35,022 nucleotides of DNA from Actinomycetota bacterium (lineage in GTDB: Bacteria > Actinomycetota > Acidimicrobiia > Acidimicrobiales > CADCTF01), in the NCBI GenBank assembly GCA_019348255.1, contig JAHWJU010000014.1:1-35022 (forward strand), in the 5' to 3' direction. Position numbers and translations under genes: made by a program. Below are positions 1-25,844 of the stretch, in pieces. Within the stretch, counting starts at the first letter, position 1, and the number at the start of each line of letters is the position of its first letter. The notes below the pieces were generated by a model. That model saw only the letters and a program-made list of their open reading frames with translations. It had not been told where the DNA came from and did not search any database.

Positions 1-420
1 CTCGGCCACCCGCCACCGGGGGCGCTCCTCGCTGCCCACGTTCTCCGCCGCCAGAGTCGTGCCCTTGGCGCCCGCAGCCCAGTTGGCAATCAGGCGCCGG
101 ACATGGCGGCCGCTGACCCGCAGCCGCTCAGCTGCCGCCGCCGTCGACAGCCAACCCTCCTCGCCCCGGCAGCGCCGGCCCTCCTGCGGTCGGGGTGCAC
201 ACACCAGCGGCTCGCCGGTGGCCGGGTGACGCCCCTCAAGCAGCGCCCGGAAGGCCTCGGGCTCGACCAGCCCCGACAGGCCCAGCTCGGCCGACAGCGA
301 TCCCACCCAGCGACCCGGCGCCTCTCCCGCCCCCGTGTAATAGGCCTGCGCGTTGGGCGCCACCTCGGCCAGGAAGTAGTCCGCCGCTCCGGTGGCGGCC
401 AGGCGGGCGATGGACAGCAC
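1..420 (-). CDS. MobF/TrwC-type conjugative relaxase, N-terminal part (runs off the left edge)
   Basis: The reading frame is open from GTG at 420 to the window edge (140 codons). A TAG three codons upstream fixes the start, and AGAGGG lies just before the GTG. The N-terminus VLSIARLAATGAADYFLAEV, the paired tyrosines in AYYTGAGEAPGRWVG (about residues 27-28) and HPATGEPL (about 65-72) match the opening of actinobacterial MobF relaxases. These proteins nick oriT and attach to DNA through N-terminal tyrosines. The residues after HPATGEPL are unusual: WLSTAAAAERLRVSGRHVRR looks like a winged or MerR/excisionase-like helix-turn-helix lying where the relaxase core normally continues. The metal-binding histidines and helicase domain would be beyond the window. 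It marks the left accessory DNA as a mobilisable or conjugative element. The family call is good; whether the gene is complete is unknown. Confidence 0.75.
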   Translation of the reverse strand, partial: MLSIARLAATGAADYFLAEVAPNAQAYYTGAGEAPGRWVGSLSAELGLSGLVEPEAFRALLEGRHPATGEPLVCAPRPQEGRRCRGEEGWLSTAAAAERLRVSGRHVRRLIANWAAGAKGTTLAAENVGSEERPRWRVAE

Positions 421-430
421 GTCCCTCTAT

Positions 431-486
431 GGCCGCGTTCGCGGCCCGCGCCGGACACACGTCGCCACGTCCCGAGGGGACGTGGC
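431..486. repeat. Two inverted repeats upstream of the relaxase (possible oriT or operator)
   Basis: Two perfect dyads lie between 10 and 66 bp before the relaxase start. GGCCGCG-TT-CGCGGCC occupies 431-446, and GCCACGTCCC-GAG-GGGACGTGGC occupies 464-486. MobF relaxases often act at an oriT beside their own gene, and inverted repeats flank or overlap such nick sites. The hairpins could equally be an operator or a terminator. The structure is seen directly; the oriT role is inference. Confidence 0.5.
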
Positions 487-630
487 AAGTCTGTGTGCCG
501 CATATGGGGCTCGCCTCCACGGGCTCAAGCTTTCGCCAGCCATGCCGACCGGTGGCGAAGGGTGAGGCAGAGCAGCCATCGCAACGCATGCTCAGCGGCT
601 CGCGACCGAAGCTGCCGGAAAGCGGCGGGC

Positions 631-1331: not shown

Positions 1332-2450
1332 TCATCCGGCATCCGCTTCTTCATCCGGCGCGTCGTCGCCGGATGCCATGGCCTGACGCAGCTCGTCGAA
1401 GATGCCTTGCGCCATTGCGCGATCGGCCTGCGCGGTCCTGTGGAGGTAGCGCAGCGCGGCTTGCGGCGATGACTGCCCGAGGCGCGCCATGAGGTCCTTC
1501 AACGTCGTGCCGGGCACCTTCGCCGCCATCGTGTTCGCCAAGTGCCGGAGGTCGTGCGGCTTGAGGTCGGGACGGACGCCGGTCTCCCGAAGTGCCTTAT
1601 GCCACGCCTTGTAGAACGAGGCGCGCCGCACGCCGCCCTTGCGCCCCGGGAACAGCGGCGCACCGGGACCAGCCGCGACGTGGTGCTCGAGGTGGGCTTC
1701 GAGCAAGGGGACAACCGACTCCGGCATCGTGACGTCGCGGACGCCGGCGGTCGACTTCGGACGACGCACCTGGATGCCGGACGACAGCTCCTGGCGCTGC
1801 TTGTTCACGATGACGCGCCGGTGGAGGAAGTCGAGATCGGCGCGTGTGAGCCCGAGCAGCTCGCCGAGGCGCAGACCGCACGTCGACGCGAGCAGCAGGA
1901 GCGCCCCGTACGGCGGGTCGATCGCCTGCACGAGCGCCAGGGCATCGCTGACCGGGATCAGCGGTCGCTCGTCGCTGGTCTCCAACGCCGCGCCTCGGAC
2001 GCGGCATCGGTTCTTCGCGATGAGGTCGTCCTCGGCGGCCGTGTTCAGGAACGCCATCAGGAGCCGGTAACACTTCGCTGCCTGCGACGGGCTCACGCGC
2101 GCTGACAGGTCGGCGTGCCACAGGCGGACGGCTCGTCTCGTGATCGCGTTCAGCGGTGTGTCGCCGAACGTCGCGACGATGTGCTTGAGCTGGCTCGCGT
2201 AGACCTCCTGGGTCCGCGGCGCGAGCCTCCGCGTCCGCATCCACTCGTCGGCGTACGTCCGCAGCGGGACACGTCCGGCCGTCGGATCGATCCACCGGTC
2301 CCGAGCGCGGTCCGCGCGCTGCTCTGCCTCCCATGCCAGCGCGTCACGCTTCGCGTGGAACGTCTTGCTGTACTTCGTGCCGTCTGGTCGGCGCAGCTCG
2401 ACGTCGTATGCGGTCTTGCCGTTGCGGAGCCGCCTCGTCCGGATGGCCAT
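1332..2450 (-). CDS. int: Tyrosine recombinase/integrase of the tRNA-Gly island
   Basis: This 372-aa protein has the phage-integrase layout. There is an N-terminal arm-binding region (to about residue 60), a SAM-like core-binding domain (about 65-160), and a C-terminal catalytic domain. Visible catalytic residues are Arg in CGLRLGE, Lys in RRPKST, HDLRH, and Tyr in LRYLH. The usual LGH is LGQ here, a substitution seen in some integrases. It catalyses site-specific integration and excision, most likely at the tRNA-Gly repeats 1217-1261 and 9011-9055. The ATG at 2450 has an excellent GGAGGAG ribosome site 9 nt after the stop of the upstream excisionase frame, so the two form a xis-int unit. The gene points toward the tRNA remnant and ends about 70 bp from it, as expected for a tRNA-targeting integrase. 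Confidence 0.93.
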   Translation of the reverse strand: MAIRTRRLRNGKTAYDVELRRPDGTKYSKTFHAKRDALAWEAEQRADRARDRWIDPTAGRVPLRTYADEWMRTRRLAPRTQEVYASQLKHIVATFGDTPLNAITRRAVRLWHADLSARVSPSQAAKCYRLLMAFLNTAAEDDLIAKNRCRVRGAALETSDERPLIPVSDALALVQAIDPPYGALLLLASTCGLRLGELLGLTRADLDFLHRRVIVNKQRQELSSGIQVRRPKSTAGVRDVTMPESVVPLLEAHLEHHVAAGPGAPLFPGRKGGVRRASFYKAWHKALRETGVRPDLKPHDLRHLANTMAAKVPGTTLKDLMARLGQSSPQAALRYLHRTAQADRAMAQGIFDELRQAMASGDDAPDEEADAG

Positions 2451-5662: not shown

Positions 5663-6241
5663 CTATGCCGTGTCGCCATCCTTGACCGCACGAAGGCGGC
5701 GCGGGTCAGCGGGCAGCGACTCCCACACCTCCTCGTCCACGAGCCGTGGGAGCTCCTTGGGCGCCAGGTGTTCCTCGAAGATCGCGAAGGTCTCACCGAG
5801 GCGGGTGGCCGCCGGCGCCAGGATGCCGTGGAGCCCAAGCTGATGAGCCGCGCGCGCGACCTGCCAGCACGGTTCGTACTCGCCGACGGGCGAGCGGAGG
5901 TCCGCCTCCGACAATCCGACGGACGCAGCTGCCGCCGGGTCCCGGAGGTCGAGCACATCAGACACGCCGACCTCGACGAGGAGCAGCCGACGGGGCTGCA
6001 CCATGTCGCCTGTCATGCCGTCGAACGGATCGACAAGGTGCCGGTAGGCCTCCACGACGACTGACGCTCGTGGCCGCCCGAGATACAAGACCGAGAACGC
6101 GCCGGGCGGCCCCCAGCGGCCGCCCGCGCTGCTCCCGGTAAGCCCTCGCCAGTCGCGGCTGGCATGGCGCTCGAAGGTGCCCTCGACCTGCGTGCGCGGC
6201 GCCCGGCCAACAGCGACGATGAGTTCCCGGCGGCTGACCAC
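5663..6241 (-). CDS. RES-domain toxin (NAD+-targeting family)
   Basis: GTG 6241 directly follows the antitoxin stop (TAGGTG); 192 aa. RES-family features are GTFERHAS (conserved Arg), GGRW, SVLYLGRPRASVVVEAYRHL (conserved Glu) and, near the end, HGILAPAATRLGETFAIFEE. RES toxins degrade or phosphorolyse NAD+. The family is named for conserved Arg, Glu and Ser. The position normally read as PS-A in this last block is PAA here, so the expected Ser appears to be Ala. The toxin may be inactive, or another residue may substitute. It forms a bicistronic module with the gene at 6242-6595, in the antitoxin-first order typical of Xre-RES systems. Confidence 0.83.
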   Translation of the reverse strand: MVSRRELIVAVGRAPRTQVEGTFERHASRDWRGLTGSSAGGRWGPPGAFSVLYLGRPRASVVVEAYRHLVDPFDGMTGDMVQPRRLLLVEVGVSDVLDLRDPAAAASVGLSEADLRSPVGEYEPCWQVARAAHQLGLHGILAPAATRLGETFAIFEEHLAPKELPRLVDEEVWESLPADPRRLRAVKDGDTA

Positions 6242-9010: not shown

Positions 9011-9055
9011 CTTCCCAAGCTGAGAACGCGAGTTCGATTCTCGTCGCCCGCTCTC
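9011..9055 (+). mobile_element. Attachment site: 3' part of tRNA-Gly(CCC), copy 2
   Basis: This direct repeat of 1217-1261 runs from the anticodon loop to the acceptor end, again without a 5' half. The two differences (9031 A for G, 9041 T for C) are partners in the T stem, so GCGGG/CCCGT becomes GCGAG/CTCGT with pairing preserved. It marks the right boundary of the 7.8-kb island; host-type genes begin after it. Confidence 0.85.
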
Positions 9056-21646: not shown

Positions 21647-23587
21647 CTACCGTCCGTCTACGGGTCCGCAGGTGGGGCCTGTAGAGGGCCCTCGACGCCG
21701 GCGCAGAGCAATGGCGCCGGCCAAGGTCGCCGCTCCCACTGCCAGCGGCAGCGAAGCCTCGGCTCCGGTGGCGGGCAGAGTGGCGCCGCCGTCTCCTGCC
21801 GGCTTCCGGGTTACGGCTGGCGGAGATGAACTCGGCGCCAGCTGGAACGGTGCCGCCACGAGCAACTCGACGTTGCGATCCTCCGCTGTCCCCAATGCCT
21901 TGGCGTGGTCACGCTGGTGGTCGTTGGCCGACAGCTCCCGGCTCAGCGAGGCAAGGTCGAGCAGCCCGGTGGCGCCGGGGGCGGCAGCAGCGGGCGCCAG
22001 GTGGTCGACAAGGGTCCCGAACACCGACAGGGTCCCATCCCGGTTGTCCACGATCTCCACCAGCCGCGCCTGGCTCGGGTAGTCGACATGGGCCGAGGTC
22101 AGGATTTCCCAGAAGCCGCCCGATCTCGGATCCGGGTGGGGAAGCACCTGGTTGCGGTGACTGTGCCCGTTCACCCACGCGATCACGTTCGGGAATCGGT
22201 GGAGCAGCGCCTTGATCGCAGGTCCCAACACCCGCCGGCCCGGGGTGGTCGGATCGGGGGTTTCGTTGTTCATCGTGTCGAGGTTGTGGTGGCTGAAGAC
22301 GACGATGAGCCGGTCGGCGGATGATGTCCTGACGAGGCTGCCGGCGCCGTCGAAGTAGCGGGACGAGTGCTCCTTGAGCCGCTCTTCGAGCCACGCGAAC
22401 TGTGCGGCGTCGAGCGAGCCTTGCTCGACGCCACCACGATCGACCGTGTCCAGCGAGATGCCCACGACGGCGGGCGCCACGTCGAAGGTGTAATAGAGCA
22501 CGCCCGAGGTCGCTGCCGTCGCCGGCAGTCCGTGGCCGACGGGGCCGGGGCTGGGCGGTGACGCGAGGTGCAGCTGCGCCCACTCCTGGGGCGACAGGAA
22601 CCGTCGCCGGCGATCAGGGGTGACCACCCGAGCGGGGGCCTCGGCCAGCGCCGCCAGCACCGCCGGATTCCCCGTCTGGAGTCCGTTCATCAGCGTGACC
22701 GGGCTCATCCCCGGGGGGACGTCCACCACCTTGACCGGTCCTGTGGCGATCGCCTCGAAGGCCGGATTGGCGGGAGCAGTCCCCTGTGCGAGCCCGTCAT
22801 GGTTGCCGTAGATCGTGTACCAGGGGACCCGGAGTCCCGAGGCCGTGAACGGCTGGGCTGCCGCAGCCAGCAGGCCTGGATGGGACGGGAACCCGCGGAA
22901 CTGCTTGTAGAAGTCACCATCGGGCCGCGGGTCGTCCGGGTGCCAGTAGTGCCGGTCGTAGGTCGTCGGCTCCTGGTCCTGCACTCCTTCATAGTTGGGG
23001 CCCCCGCTGCCAGCGGCCACCCGGCCGCCGTCGAGCAGGGTGATGAACCACGACAGTTCGTTCTCCTGGCGGTTGTCGCCGTTGTCCCCGGTCGAGACGG
23101 CACAGTCGAAGGGGCGACCGGTGATGGGCCCGCCGGACAGACTGTTGACCCGACGTACCATCGCCTCCGCGACCTGAGCCGTCAGCGTCTCCTGAGGGCG
23201 GAAGGCCGCCTTGAACCGATCGGGCGACGGAGGATCGGAATAGCGGTCCAGGAACTCGACCCGGGCGGGGCTCTCCGTGTCGATGATGTGGATGTCGGTG
23301 AGGTGGACGATCGAAGCCAGCGGCACCCGGCGGTTCTCCCGACCCGCTCTGGCCTCAGGCCCCAGGGTCCGCACCAGCGTCGGCCACCCGGGGGCTTCGG
23401 TGAAGCGGCGATAGCCGGCGCCGACCGGCACCAAAGTCGACTCCAGGGTGGTGCCAGCCGGTGACGCAGCGGTCGCCAGAGTGATCCCCCACGCCCGCTC
23501 CTGGGCCCGGAGCAGGTCTGGATTGGCGAGGCCGGCGGCCGCCAACACACCGGCCCGCTGCAGGAACGCCCGCCGGGAAAGCCGCAT
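21647..23587 (-). CDS. Secreted metallophosphoesterase (TIGR03767/PPA1498-like), Tat signal and LPXTG anchor
   Basis: ATG 23587 gives 646 aa. The start is chosen because RLSRRAFLQRAGVLAAAGLA is a twin-arginine signal. The phosphoesterase motifs appear in order: SIVHLTDIHIIDTE, STGDNGDNRQ, YGNHDGL, VVFSHHNLDT and WVNGHSHRNQ. They coordinate two metals. Near the C-terminus comes LPATGAEASLPLAVGAATLA, then GAIALRRRRG, a sortase LPXTG signal with hydrophobic span and basic tail. It should therefore be folded in the cytoplasm with its metals, exported by Tat and fixed to the cell wall. Its substrate is unknown. It converges with the glycosyltransferase operon and could act on an exported phosphorylated product, which is speculative. 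Confidence 0.9.
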   Translation of the reverse strand: MRLSRRAFLQRAGVLAAAGLANPDLLRAQERAWGITLATAASPAGTTLESTLVPVGAGYRRFTEAPGWPTLVRTLGPEARAGRENRRVPLASIVHLTDIHIIDTESPARVEFLDRYSDPPSPDRFKAAFRPQETLTAQVAEAMVRRVNSLSGGPITGRPFDCAVSTGDNGDNRQENELSWFITLLDGGRVAAGSGGPNYEGVQDQEPTTYDRHYWHPDDPRPDGDFYKQFRGFPSHPGLLAAAAQPFTASGLRVPWYTIYGNHDGLAQGTAPANPAFEAIATGPVKVVDVPPGMSPVTLMNGLQTGNPAVLAALAEAPARVVTPDRRRRFLSPQEWAQLHLASPPSPGPVGHGLPATAATSGVLYYTFDVAPAVVGISLDTVDRGGVEQGSLDAAQFAWLEERLKEHSSRYFDGAGSLVRTSSADRLIVVFSHHNLDTMNNETPDPTTPGRRVLGPAIKALLHRFPNVIAWVNGHSHRNQVLPHPDPRSGGFWEILTSAHVDYPSQARLVEIVDNRDGTLSVFGTLVDHLAPAAAAPGATGLLDLASLSRELSANDHQRDHAKALGTAEDRNVELLVAAPFQLAPSSSPPAVTRKPAGDGGATLPATGAEASLPLAVGAATLAGAIALRRRRGPSTGPTCGPVDGR

Positions 23588-23665
23588 CGGGGCCAGCCTA
23601 GGAGAGGGAGCCGGTCGCCACGCACGAACCAACCCGGCCGCAGCTCCTGCACCCGCTCGTCTGGA

Positions 23666-24455
23666 TCAGTGTGCGGTGCCATCCCACCACAACGCCACCA
23701 CGCGCTGCGGCTGAGCCCCGTGCTCCTCGAGCAGGACGGCGATCTCGTGGTCTCGATCAGCACCCAGACAGAGGCGCCGGCGGGCGAAGGCGACAACTTC
23801 CGGAGTGACCTCCCGCCACCGGGGCGGCACCTCGATCTCGGTGCGATGGACTTCCAGACCCATCGCCCCCAGCACCGCCCAGGCGTCGTCCGCGGTCGGA
23901 GCGGTCGGACGGTCGAGCCCGTGGAGCGCCTTCCACAGCGCGTTGAGGGGCGACTGCGGATGGTGCTGGGTGAGCTCCACGACCACCCGGAGGCGGGCGT
24001 GGTCGGTGAGGGCGGCGGCGAAAGGCTCCAGGTCCCCCACGTTGTAGAAGACGTGATGGCACACCACCACGTCCGCCGGCCCCACCTGGTCCGCCGCCTC
24101 CGGCCATCGCCCCTGCACCGCCCGGGCGGCGACGCCGGCGGCGCGGGCGGCTTCTTCGAAGCTGCGCAACATGTTGTCGCTCTCGTCCACGCCGGTGATG
24201 AGCCCGACGCGGGGAACGAGGCCGAGGCTGGACGCCCCCCCTCCTACGCCCACGTCTATCACCGACCCACCGGGAGGTAGTGCCTCCAGCGCCCGGAGGC
24301 GGGAGGGCCGCATCTCGCTGTTGCGGTCCTCGTTCGGCTTCCAGCGGAACAGCTCCGGTGGGAAGCCCCATGGTCGCTCGGGGGCGGCCTCGACGATGGC
24401 CTCTGGGATCGCCCACTGTCCCAGTGCCTCCCGCCAACGCAACGAAGGCTGTGTC

Positions 24456-24457
<2 letters not shown>
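23666..24457 (-). CDS. SAM-dependent methyltransferase
   Basis: ATG 24457 gives 263 aa. The class I SAM-binding motif I is GGSVIDVGVGGGASSLGL (about 87-104). The motif II acidic residue is in GLITGVDESDNMLR, and the post-motif region is PADVVVCHHVFYNVGDLEPF. The N-terminus (SLRWREALGQWAIPEAIVEA, then FPPELFRWKP) is a helical cap. The substrate cannot be inferred. The start codons of this gene and the divergent kinase gene overlap in the single palindrome CATG (24455-24458), so the two probably share a small promoter region inside coding sequence, or the kinase starts later. Confidence 0.85.

Positions 24458-25844
<1,387 letters not shown>

Follow-up and report, generated by a model that had tools for sequence, protein, structure and literature searches.

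A truncated relaxase gene at the contig edge

The window, that is, the whole stretch of DNA analysed here, is one complete contig (G000:C263) of 35,022 bases from an assembly of 2.99 Mb in 314 contigs. Its left end is occupied by the 5' part of a MOBF relaxase gene on the minus strand (1..420), which has no in-frame stop up to the contig edge. The open frame (426..1) runs off the contig, and GTG at 420-418 is the likely start codon; the first 140 codons are present and the rest is removed by the contig end. Upstream, at 464..495 on the same strand, lies a hairpin that we consider a candidate oriT. Further to the right, a tyrosine integrase gene (1332-2450, minus strand) adjoins one copy of a 45-bp direct repeat (1217-1261 and 9011-9055, 2 mismatches) whose letters resemble the 3' half of a tRNA-Gly; no complete tRNA was detected in the window by a tRNA search. 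The two copies appear to bound an integrative element of 7.8 kb, in which case the relaxase gene would belong to a neighbour on its left. A RES-domain gene is located at 5663-6241 (minus strand; Pfam RES, 60.8 bits).

A sequence-only reading of this stretch had claimed a standard MobF N-terminus before HPATGEPL. This was borne out by a match to the TrwC relaxase profile (Pfam PF08751, positions 2-68 of 286, 55.4 bits, cut-off 25) at 190..393 on the minus strand, corresponding to residues 12-79 of the 142-residue frame. The catalytic tyrosines occur as YF at residues 15-16 and YY at residues 27-28 of the 140-residue reading, and Y15, Y27, and Y28 are invariant among nine insert-bearing sequences, the window included. 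On this fragment of a gene cut by the contig end, the NCBIfam MobF equivalog scored 46.9 bits against a cut-off of 100.

Past HPATGEPL, the sequence departs from the TrwC pattern and continues into weak helix-turn-helix (HTH) matches at residues 90-122, all below their own cut-offs (HTH_23, 20.4; HTH_29, 16.9; HTH_17, 16.6 with a cut-off of 27; TIGR01764 'excise', 17.6 bits). The visible part of the predicted inserted winged HTH (wHTH) occupies 1..153 on the minus strand, from WLSTAAAAERLRVSGRHVRR (153-94) to RWRVAE, while its last helix and the HUH core fall past the contig end. In an AlphaFold2 model of the fragment, HTH helices were predicted at residues 93-100 and 104-117 with block pLDDT values of 80, 81, and 65, the first helix falling in a block of about 80; confidence in the whole model was low (54.2). 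Thus, of the earlier claim that an HTH precedes the expected core, the HTH is found in the window, whereas the core lies outside it and is seen in relatives only. When the core and helicase region of a relative was used as query against this assembly, it yielded no continuation of the gene and only five other MobF loci. Four of these (C34, C173, C207, and C248) read straight through without the HTH segment; the fifth (C132) has a shifted frame at the corresponding place.

Distribution of the insert among related relaxases

With the window fragment alone, a scan of genome contigs gave 159 pattern matches, none of which was a relative, and tblastn against plasmids gave no match. These failures were overcome through full-length relatives. 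In a search of 198 related genomes, relatives were aligned through the HTH, and the five best had open frames of 1139-1311 codons and identities of 47-54%. Named genomes were then scanned with an alignment of these five and the window, yielding 53 relatives. Eight of them (L075-L082, all from actinobacterial MAGs and five identical to genes from the 198-genome search) carry the segment in register; 41 were scored by a motif script as having no insert, and L088, L090, L093, and L127 had no row in that script and are unclassified. The relatives without the segment pass directly into the core, which makes the segment an insertion in the relaxase domain, as the sequence-only reading had proposed. 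Plasmid matches of unusual length came from Arthrobacter-type, Clavibacter, and Nocardia plasmids; eight of ten plasmid loci (L065-L072) had no motif-script row and, besides the record from Iamia sp. SCSIO 61187, are unclassified.

In 80 distinct MobF cores, the G-x-W and P-K-S motifs were mostly 40-65 residues apart where the insert is absent and 122-197 residues apart where it is present, a few rows being wrong by the motif rule, including insert-bearing L018 and L080. A profile of insert plus core, applied to 397 genomes of the order, listed 41 full-span matches in 28 genomes, 26 of which have open frames of >1000 codons. Outside the order, among 396 genomes spread over the phylum, the sole strong full-span match was in G435 (E 1.3e-36). 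The insert occurs in three variants, namely clade A (to which the window belongs), clade B, and another group, exemplified by Iamia sp. SCSIO 61187, which was judged by eye to have a tandem pair of wHTH units with a degenerate first one. L056 likewise has two wHTH stretches. In addition, 13 actinobacterial MobF loci have a different insert between the same two landmarks, which was judged from sequence to be helical.

These data bear on the explanation that what the window shows is the usual relaxase core, a gene that is broken, or an error of assembly. The window copy is indeed cut by the contig end; however, full insert-plus-core matches in 28 of 397 genomes, most of them with long open frames, and an intact insert-bearing relaxase on the complete plasmid of Iamia sp. 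SCSIO 61187 make this exceedingly improbable. For the family, a broken gene and an ordinary core were both rejected on the basis of intact full-length relatives with a complete wHTH insert. The Iamia plasmid (NZ_CP050949.1, L298) is typed as 'non-mobilizable' by MOB-suite, yet it carries a MobF relaxase gene at 22015-25272 (minus strand; TrwC, 215 bits) with a candidate oriT just 5' of it, which starts at 25329 on the minus strand.

Predicted fold and position of the insert

Relatives L075-L082 score 263-291 bits for the TrwC relaxase domain. In L075, the HUH motif (H232-T233-H234) is invariant in the eight sequences and is followed by an AAA_30 helicase domain (162.7 bits), both in the region past the contig end of the window. 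In an alignment with solved TraI, residues 1-66 of L075 pair with TraI 1-62 and residues 150-363 with TraI 75-290; therefore, residues 67-149 face about 12 residues of TraI. AlphaFold2, run on L075 with seven relatives, returned a model (pLDDT 76.2) with a complete strand-helix-helix-wing-helix unit at residues 91-146. The unit consists of a strand (91-93), two helices (94-101 and 105-113), two wing strands (119-123 and 130-135), and a further helix (136-146), and is flanked by a helix at 53-60 and a strand at 154-159.

The whole L075 model resembles the TrwC-oriT complex 1osb (Z 29.1, rmsd 2.8, 278 residues aligned). The insert was compared by VIA-align, where a Z near 8 alone may reflect a common arrangement. 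It resembled DNA-bound BldC (6ama, Z 8.6, rmsd 2.2, 54 aligned; 6amk, Z 8.2, rmsd 1.2, 51 aligned), the Xis protein of mycobacteriophage Pukovnik (4j2n, Z 7.7, rmsd 2.1, 56 aligned), the excisionase RdfS (8dgl, Z 6.5), and several MerR proteins. The excisionase/MerR-like character claimed earlier from the letters is thus upheld for residues 89-147 of the L075 model, with MerR proteins scoring lower than BldC and Xis. The HTH_17 profile scores agree only in part with the structural match: among ten relatives scanned, L056 (39.0, two stretches) and L062 (27.0, covering almost the full profile) reached the curated cut-off of 27, L075 (26.1, profile positions 1-50), L076 (25.0), L079 (24.6), L081 (20.7), and L080 (14.7) remained below it, and L077, L078, and L082 had no row at E 1.

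Comparison with full-length MobF relaxases showed an insertion, and the predicted structure of L075 a complete winged HTH. Since eight relatives share the segment in register and AlphaFold2 folds that of L075 as a full winged HTH, the HTH segment after HPATGEPL is confirmed as a real observation beyond chance. The alignments and the model support the view that the insert is a complete wHTH of the excisionase/BldC/MerR type, standing in place of some 12 residues that otherwise link the N-terminal helices to the HUH core. Judging by how helices and strands follow one another in the model, we read its position as the alphaC-beta3 loop. This place tolerates additions, since other relaxases have the helix-like insert between the same landmarks. 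According to the cryo-EM study of the F relaxosome (PMC12117103), the alphaC-beta3 loop is a main contact of the TraI transesterase with double-stranded oriT DNA, at +10 to +15, and additionally contacts the TraI VH domain. TrwC Arg81, which contacts G17 (PMC4176350), aligns by profile with an invariant Arg of the K-x-R-P-G motif right behind the insert.

The insert-bearing relaxases share with TrwC of R388 and TraI of F the HUH fold, the TrwC and helicase domains (as in L075), and a hairpin by the putative nick region. They differ from them in that about 12 alphaC-beta3 residues have given way to at least 80 residues with a wHTH, and to more in the tandem forms. BldC, phage Xis, and MerR, whose winged HTH fold the insert shares, are free-standing regulators or excisionases and not parts of relaxases. 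The nearest analogue would be the MOBT relaxases with an N-terminal HTH, which are apparently alike in working and belong to another family by catalytic domain and HTH position. As described in PMC9371924, the MOBT relaxase RelSt3 of ICESt3 has an N-terminal HTH and a Rep_trans-like catalytic domain. Its own HTH, without which nicking is not efficient, binds an inverted repeat of the oriT at a distance of 68 bp from the nic repeat. In the relaxases described here, the catalytic domain is TrwC and the HTH is internal, so that they fall outside the MOBT definition (Rep_trans plus N-terminal HTH); the HTH is placed inside the HUH domain and the stem directly adjoins the core, a picture drawn from sequence and predicted structure. 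In the literature searched, which lay mostly outside subscription journals, no MOBF relaxase was described as having a wHTH within its nuclease domain. What appears to be new here is the combination of a predicted wHTH in the MOBF nuclease domain with a long hairpin upstream of the insert-bearing relaxases.

A long hairpin upstream of insert-bearing relaxases

The candidate oriT of the window (464..495, minus strand) consists of the core CACAGACTT (495-487), a 10-bp arm (486-477), a 3-nt loop (476-474), and the second arm (473-464). It is the sole match to CACAGACTTGCM in its assembly, and when the 200 bp upstream were dinucleotide-shuffled 60 times, its arm length was never reached. As single-stranded DNA (454..506, plus strand), the region is predicted to fold into this hairpin and a weaker outer extension (-15.2 kcal/mol, z -3.37), with none of 200 shuffles folding as well.

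Nine clade A genes were compared first, namely L075-L082 and that of the window. In seven of them, AGACTTGC abuts an inverted repeat, upstream and on the relaxase strand. The repeats are 9-12 bp long with a 3-nt loop, that of L076 containing one mismatch; the insert-bearing L077 and L081 have no recognisable long-stem site upstream. The genome of L077 (G186) has long-stem sites on other contigs. Read on the opposite strand, the clade A site is a hairpin followed by GCAAGTCT-GTG, an order like that of the R388 oriT, where the oligonucleotide printed in PMC4814116 shows a hairpin and then GTATTGTCT/ATAG. The stem read from that oligonucleotide is 5-6 bp, compared to 8-12 bp here. In clade B, the stem measures 11-12 bp in five genes, where the loop is 3 nt long, and 8 bp in L063, with differing cores, e.g., ACACATTTGC; L052 has no upstream stem site. 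In general, the hairpin of insert-bearing relaxases lies flush with an ACAC/ACAG-type core and has a stem of 8-12 bp (usually 11) and a loop of 3-4 nt, the stem beginning in fixed register immediately past the core. The long-stem pattern had no match in viral contigs.

Among 23 distinct 11-bp sites, two-sided changes occur at eight of the 11 pairs. The covariation score was 0.469; shuffles gave 0.113, and sliding the alignment gave no more than 0.108. In total, 99.2% of cells pair, a percentage that is inflated because the sites were picked for having a stem; that choice alone need not yield two-sided changes. From the sequence of these sites, we infer that the upstream hairpin is the oriT of the insert-bearing relaxases, the putative nick position included.

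Stem length in relaxase genes with and without the insert

In the first of two tests, the sole requirement was a perfect inverted repeat in the nearest 200 bp. Arms of at least 9 bp were found in six of nine genes with the insert and in two of 37 taken as having none (L088 and L091; arms of 9 or 10 bp). In the second test, the rule was an ACAC, ACAG, or CAAAG core followed by a net stem of at least 7 bp with a loop of 3-4 nt, in windows of up to 800 nt. A site was present in 32 of 40 insert-bearing loci (window included), in 7 of 82 loci without insert, and in none of the 12 usable loci with the helix-like insert, in which we saw no HTH. Dinucleotide shuffles of the three sets gave 13/800, 35/1640, and 3/240 sites, respectively. 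All 32 insert-bearing positives had net stems of 8-12 bp, and of the seven positives without insert, six had 7 bp and one had 8 bp. At a threshold of at least 8 bp, the counts were 32/40 versus 1/82 (Fisher p 9e-21, with loci counted as if unrelated).

The rule was fixed after sites or near misses of 22 of the 40 loci were known, and the CAAAG core was added for L016. Of the 18 insert-bearing loci whose site was unseen before the rule, 12 were positive, some being near-copies of each other (near-copies among the positives include L220, L221, and L262). No site was found by this rule in eight of the 40 (L200, L019, L017, L212, L211, L225, L227, and L264); L017 and L212 were near misses, and L225 offered only 388 nt of sequence. 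The set without insert comprised 88 genes assigned by motif and not individually inspected, 82 of them with usable windows. Omitted were L267, L268, and L269 (helix-like or unclear) and L206 and L214 (too little upstream sequence). L055, with an 11-bp stem, is absent from the count, probably due to masked bases, and L050 and L226 have inserts but were not full-span profile hits and are uncounted.

The result is consistent with the following reading, which we consider probable: the inserted wHTH extends oriT recognition along the longer stem. A wHTH of the excisionase/BldC/MerR kind would have been spliced into the alphaC-beta3 loop of a MOBF (TrwC/TraI-type) nuclease domain. The HUH domain would read the conserved core and the hairpin base as usual, and the inserted wHTH, or two in tandem, would read further base pairs of the lengthened stem, making origin choice stricter and tying each relaxase to its own stem sequence. 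From the alignments and the predicted fold, the wHTH presumably binds the hairpin stem. The suggestion of oriT-specific recognition made in the sequence-only reading thus gains support from the predicted alphaC-beta3 position and from the longer, covarying hairpin.

Shared ancestry could inflate the correlation between insert and stem, because there are few independent origins. In a tree of the core alone, from which 19 of the 80 core sequences were omitted as close relatives, a single origin of the insert was not rejected (AU p 0.243), and the best tree needs at least two changes. The tree gives just one or two independent contrasts for insert and stem, too few for a phylogenetic pair test, and shared ancestry is therefore the main threat to the reading of a stem-binding insert. 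According to this alternative, a wHTH insert and a long oriT stem simply happen to coexist in one lineage and do not touch each other. However, the stem sequences drift with paired changes, and the cores vary by group (CACAGACTTGC, ACACATTTGC, and GACACCCTTGC) while the 11-bp length and the 3-nt loop are mostly kept. We regard ancestry as the sole cause as unlikely.

The insert might also serve as a protein-protein contact or a spacer in the relaxosome instead of reading DNA. The contact of the alphaC-beta3 loop with the VH domain in the F relaxosome would fit this function, as would the helix-like inserts at the same landmarks in other actinobacterial relaxases. Yet none of the 12 usable helix-like-insert relaxases has the long stem, and the complete wHTH fold resembles DNA-bound structures of BldC and MerR. 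We consider this role quite improbable.

Sites away from insert-bearing genes

The loci from the 198 genomes together with the named loci contained 73 distinct CACAGACTTGCM sites. Five of them, with the core CACAGACTTGC and a stem of 4-5 bp, are located 51-535 nt upstream of the N-terminal segment of MobF genes without insert (L083, L086, L096, L159, and L160; the L159 gene is cut soon after the N-terminus). Sixteen of the 73 sites had net stems of 9-12 bp, and six of these adjoin an insert-bearing relaxase gene. At the ten others, no relaxase was detected by the N-terminal and core profiles within 0.5-1.5 kb on each side. Phage-integrase domains (Pfam) are encoded near the long-stem sites L129, L132, and L146, the first two of which also have a Xis-like gene (HTH_17) in their vicinity; an integrase also lies near L148 (Pfam), which has a degenerate stem. 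As a lead, it is possible that the relaxase-free long-stem sites mark mobilisable elements that borrow a relaxase.

These sites also bear on the explanation that the palindrome is an operator by which the wHTH represses the promoter of its own relaxase gene, the HUH domain alone recognising the origin. A palindrome upstream of a gene for an HTH protein is the usual picture of autoregulation, and the first sites were found 40-140 bases before the relaxase gene start. An operator would not, however, account for a stem in fixed register directly behind the core, for the occurrence of this core, followed by a short hairpin, before five MobF genes that lack the insert, or for ten long-stem sites without a detectable relaxase, some of them beside integrase and Xis-like genes. 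We thus consider this explanation unlikely; an operator role could be additional to origin recognition.

Returning to the reading in which the wHTH reads the stem, conjugation hinges on the relaxase choosing the right origin. If a regulator-type DNA reader does reside inside the nuclease domain with a matching longer origin, this would help in reading origin choice from sequence and in predicting which mobilisable elements a relaxase serves, and would provide a natural experiment on specificity change in relaxases. A further-reaching version, which we put forward only tentatively, is that specificity is modular: the HUH domain may keep a common core, and the inserted wHTHs may act as exchangeable stem readers that replace separate DNA-binding proteins of the relaxosome. 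If so, the relaxase-free integrative elements with a long-stem origin, an integrase, and Xis-like genes would be hitchhikers copying the stem.

Two loci show arrangements of their own. At L132 (G171:C108, approximately 1432-1580), two long-stem oriT-like sites lie close together in inverted orientation, between genes whose resemblance to the window's RES, xis, and int genes was judged by eye. At L047, a second CACAGACTTGCC core with a stem of only 4 bp is present on the complement at position 1180 (G066:C12:30308-30319); the long-stem site follows some 1.5 kb downstream.
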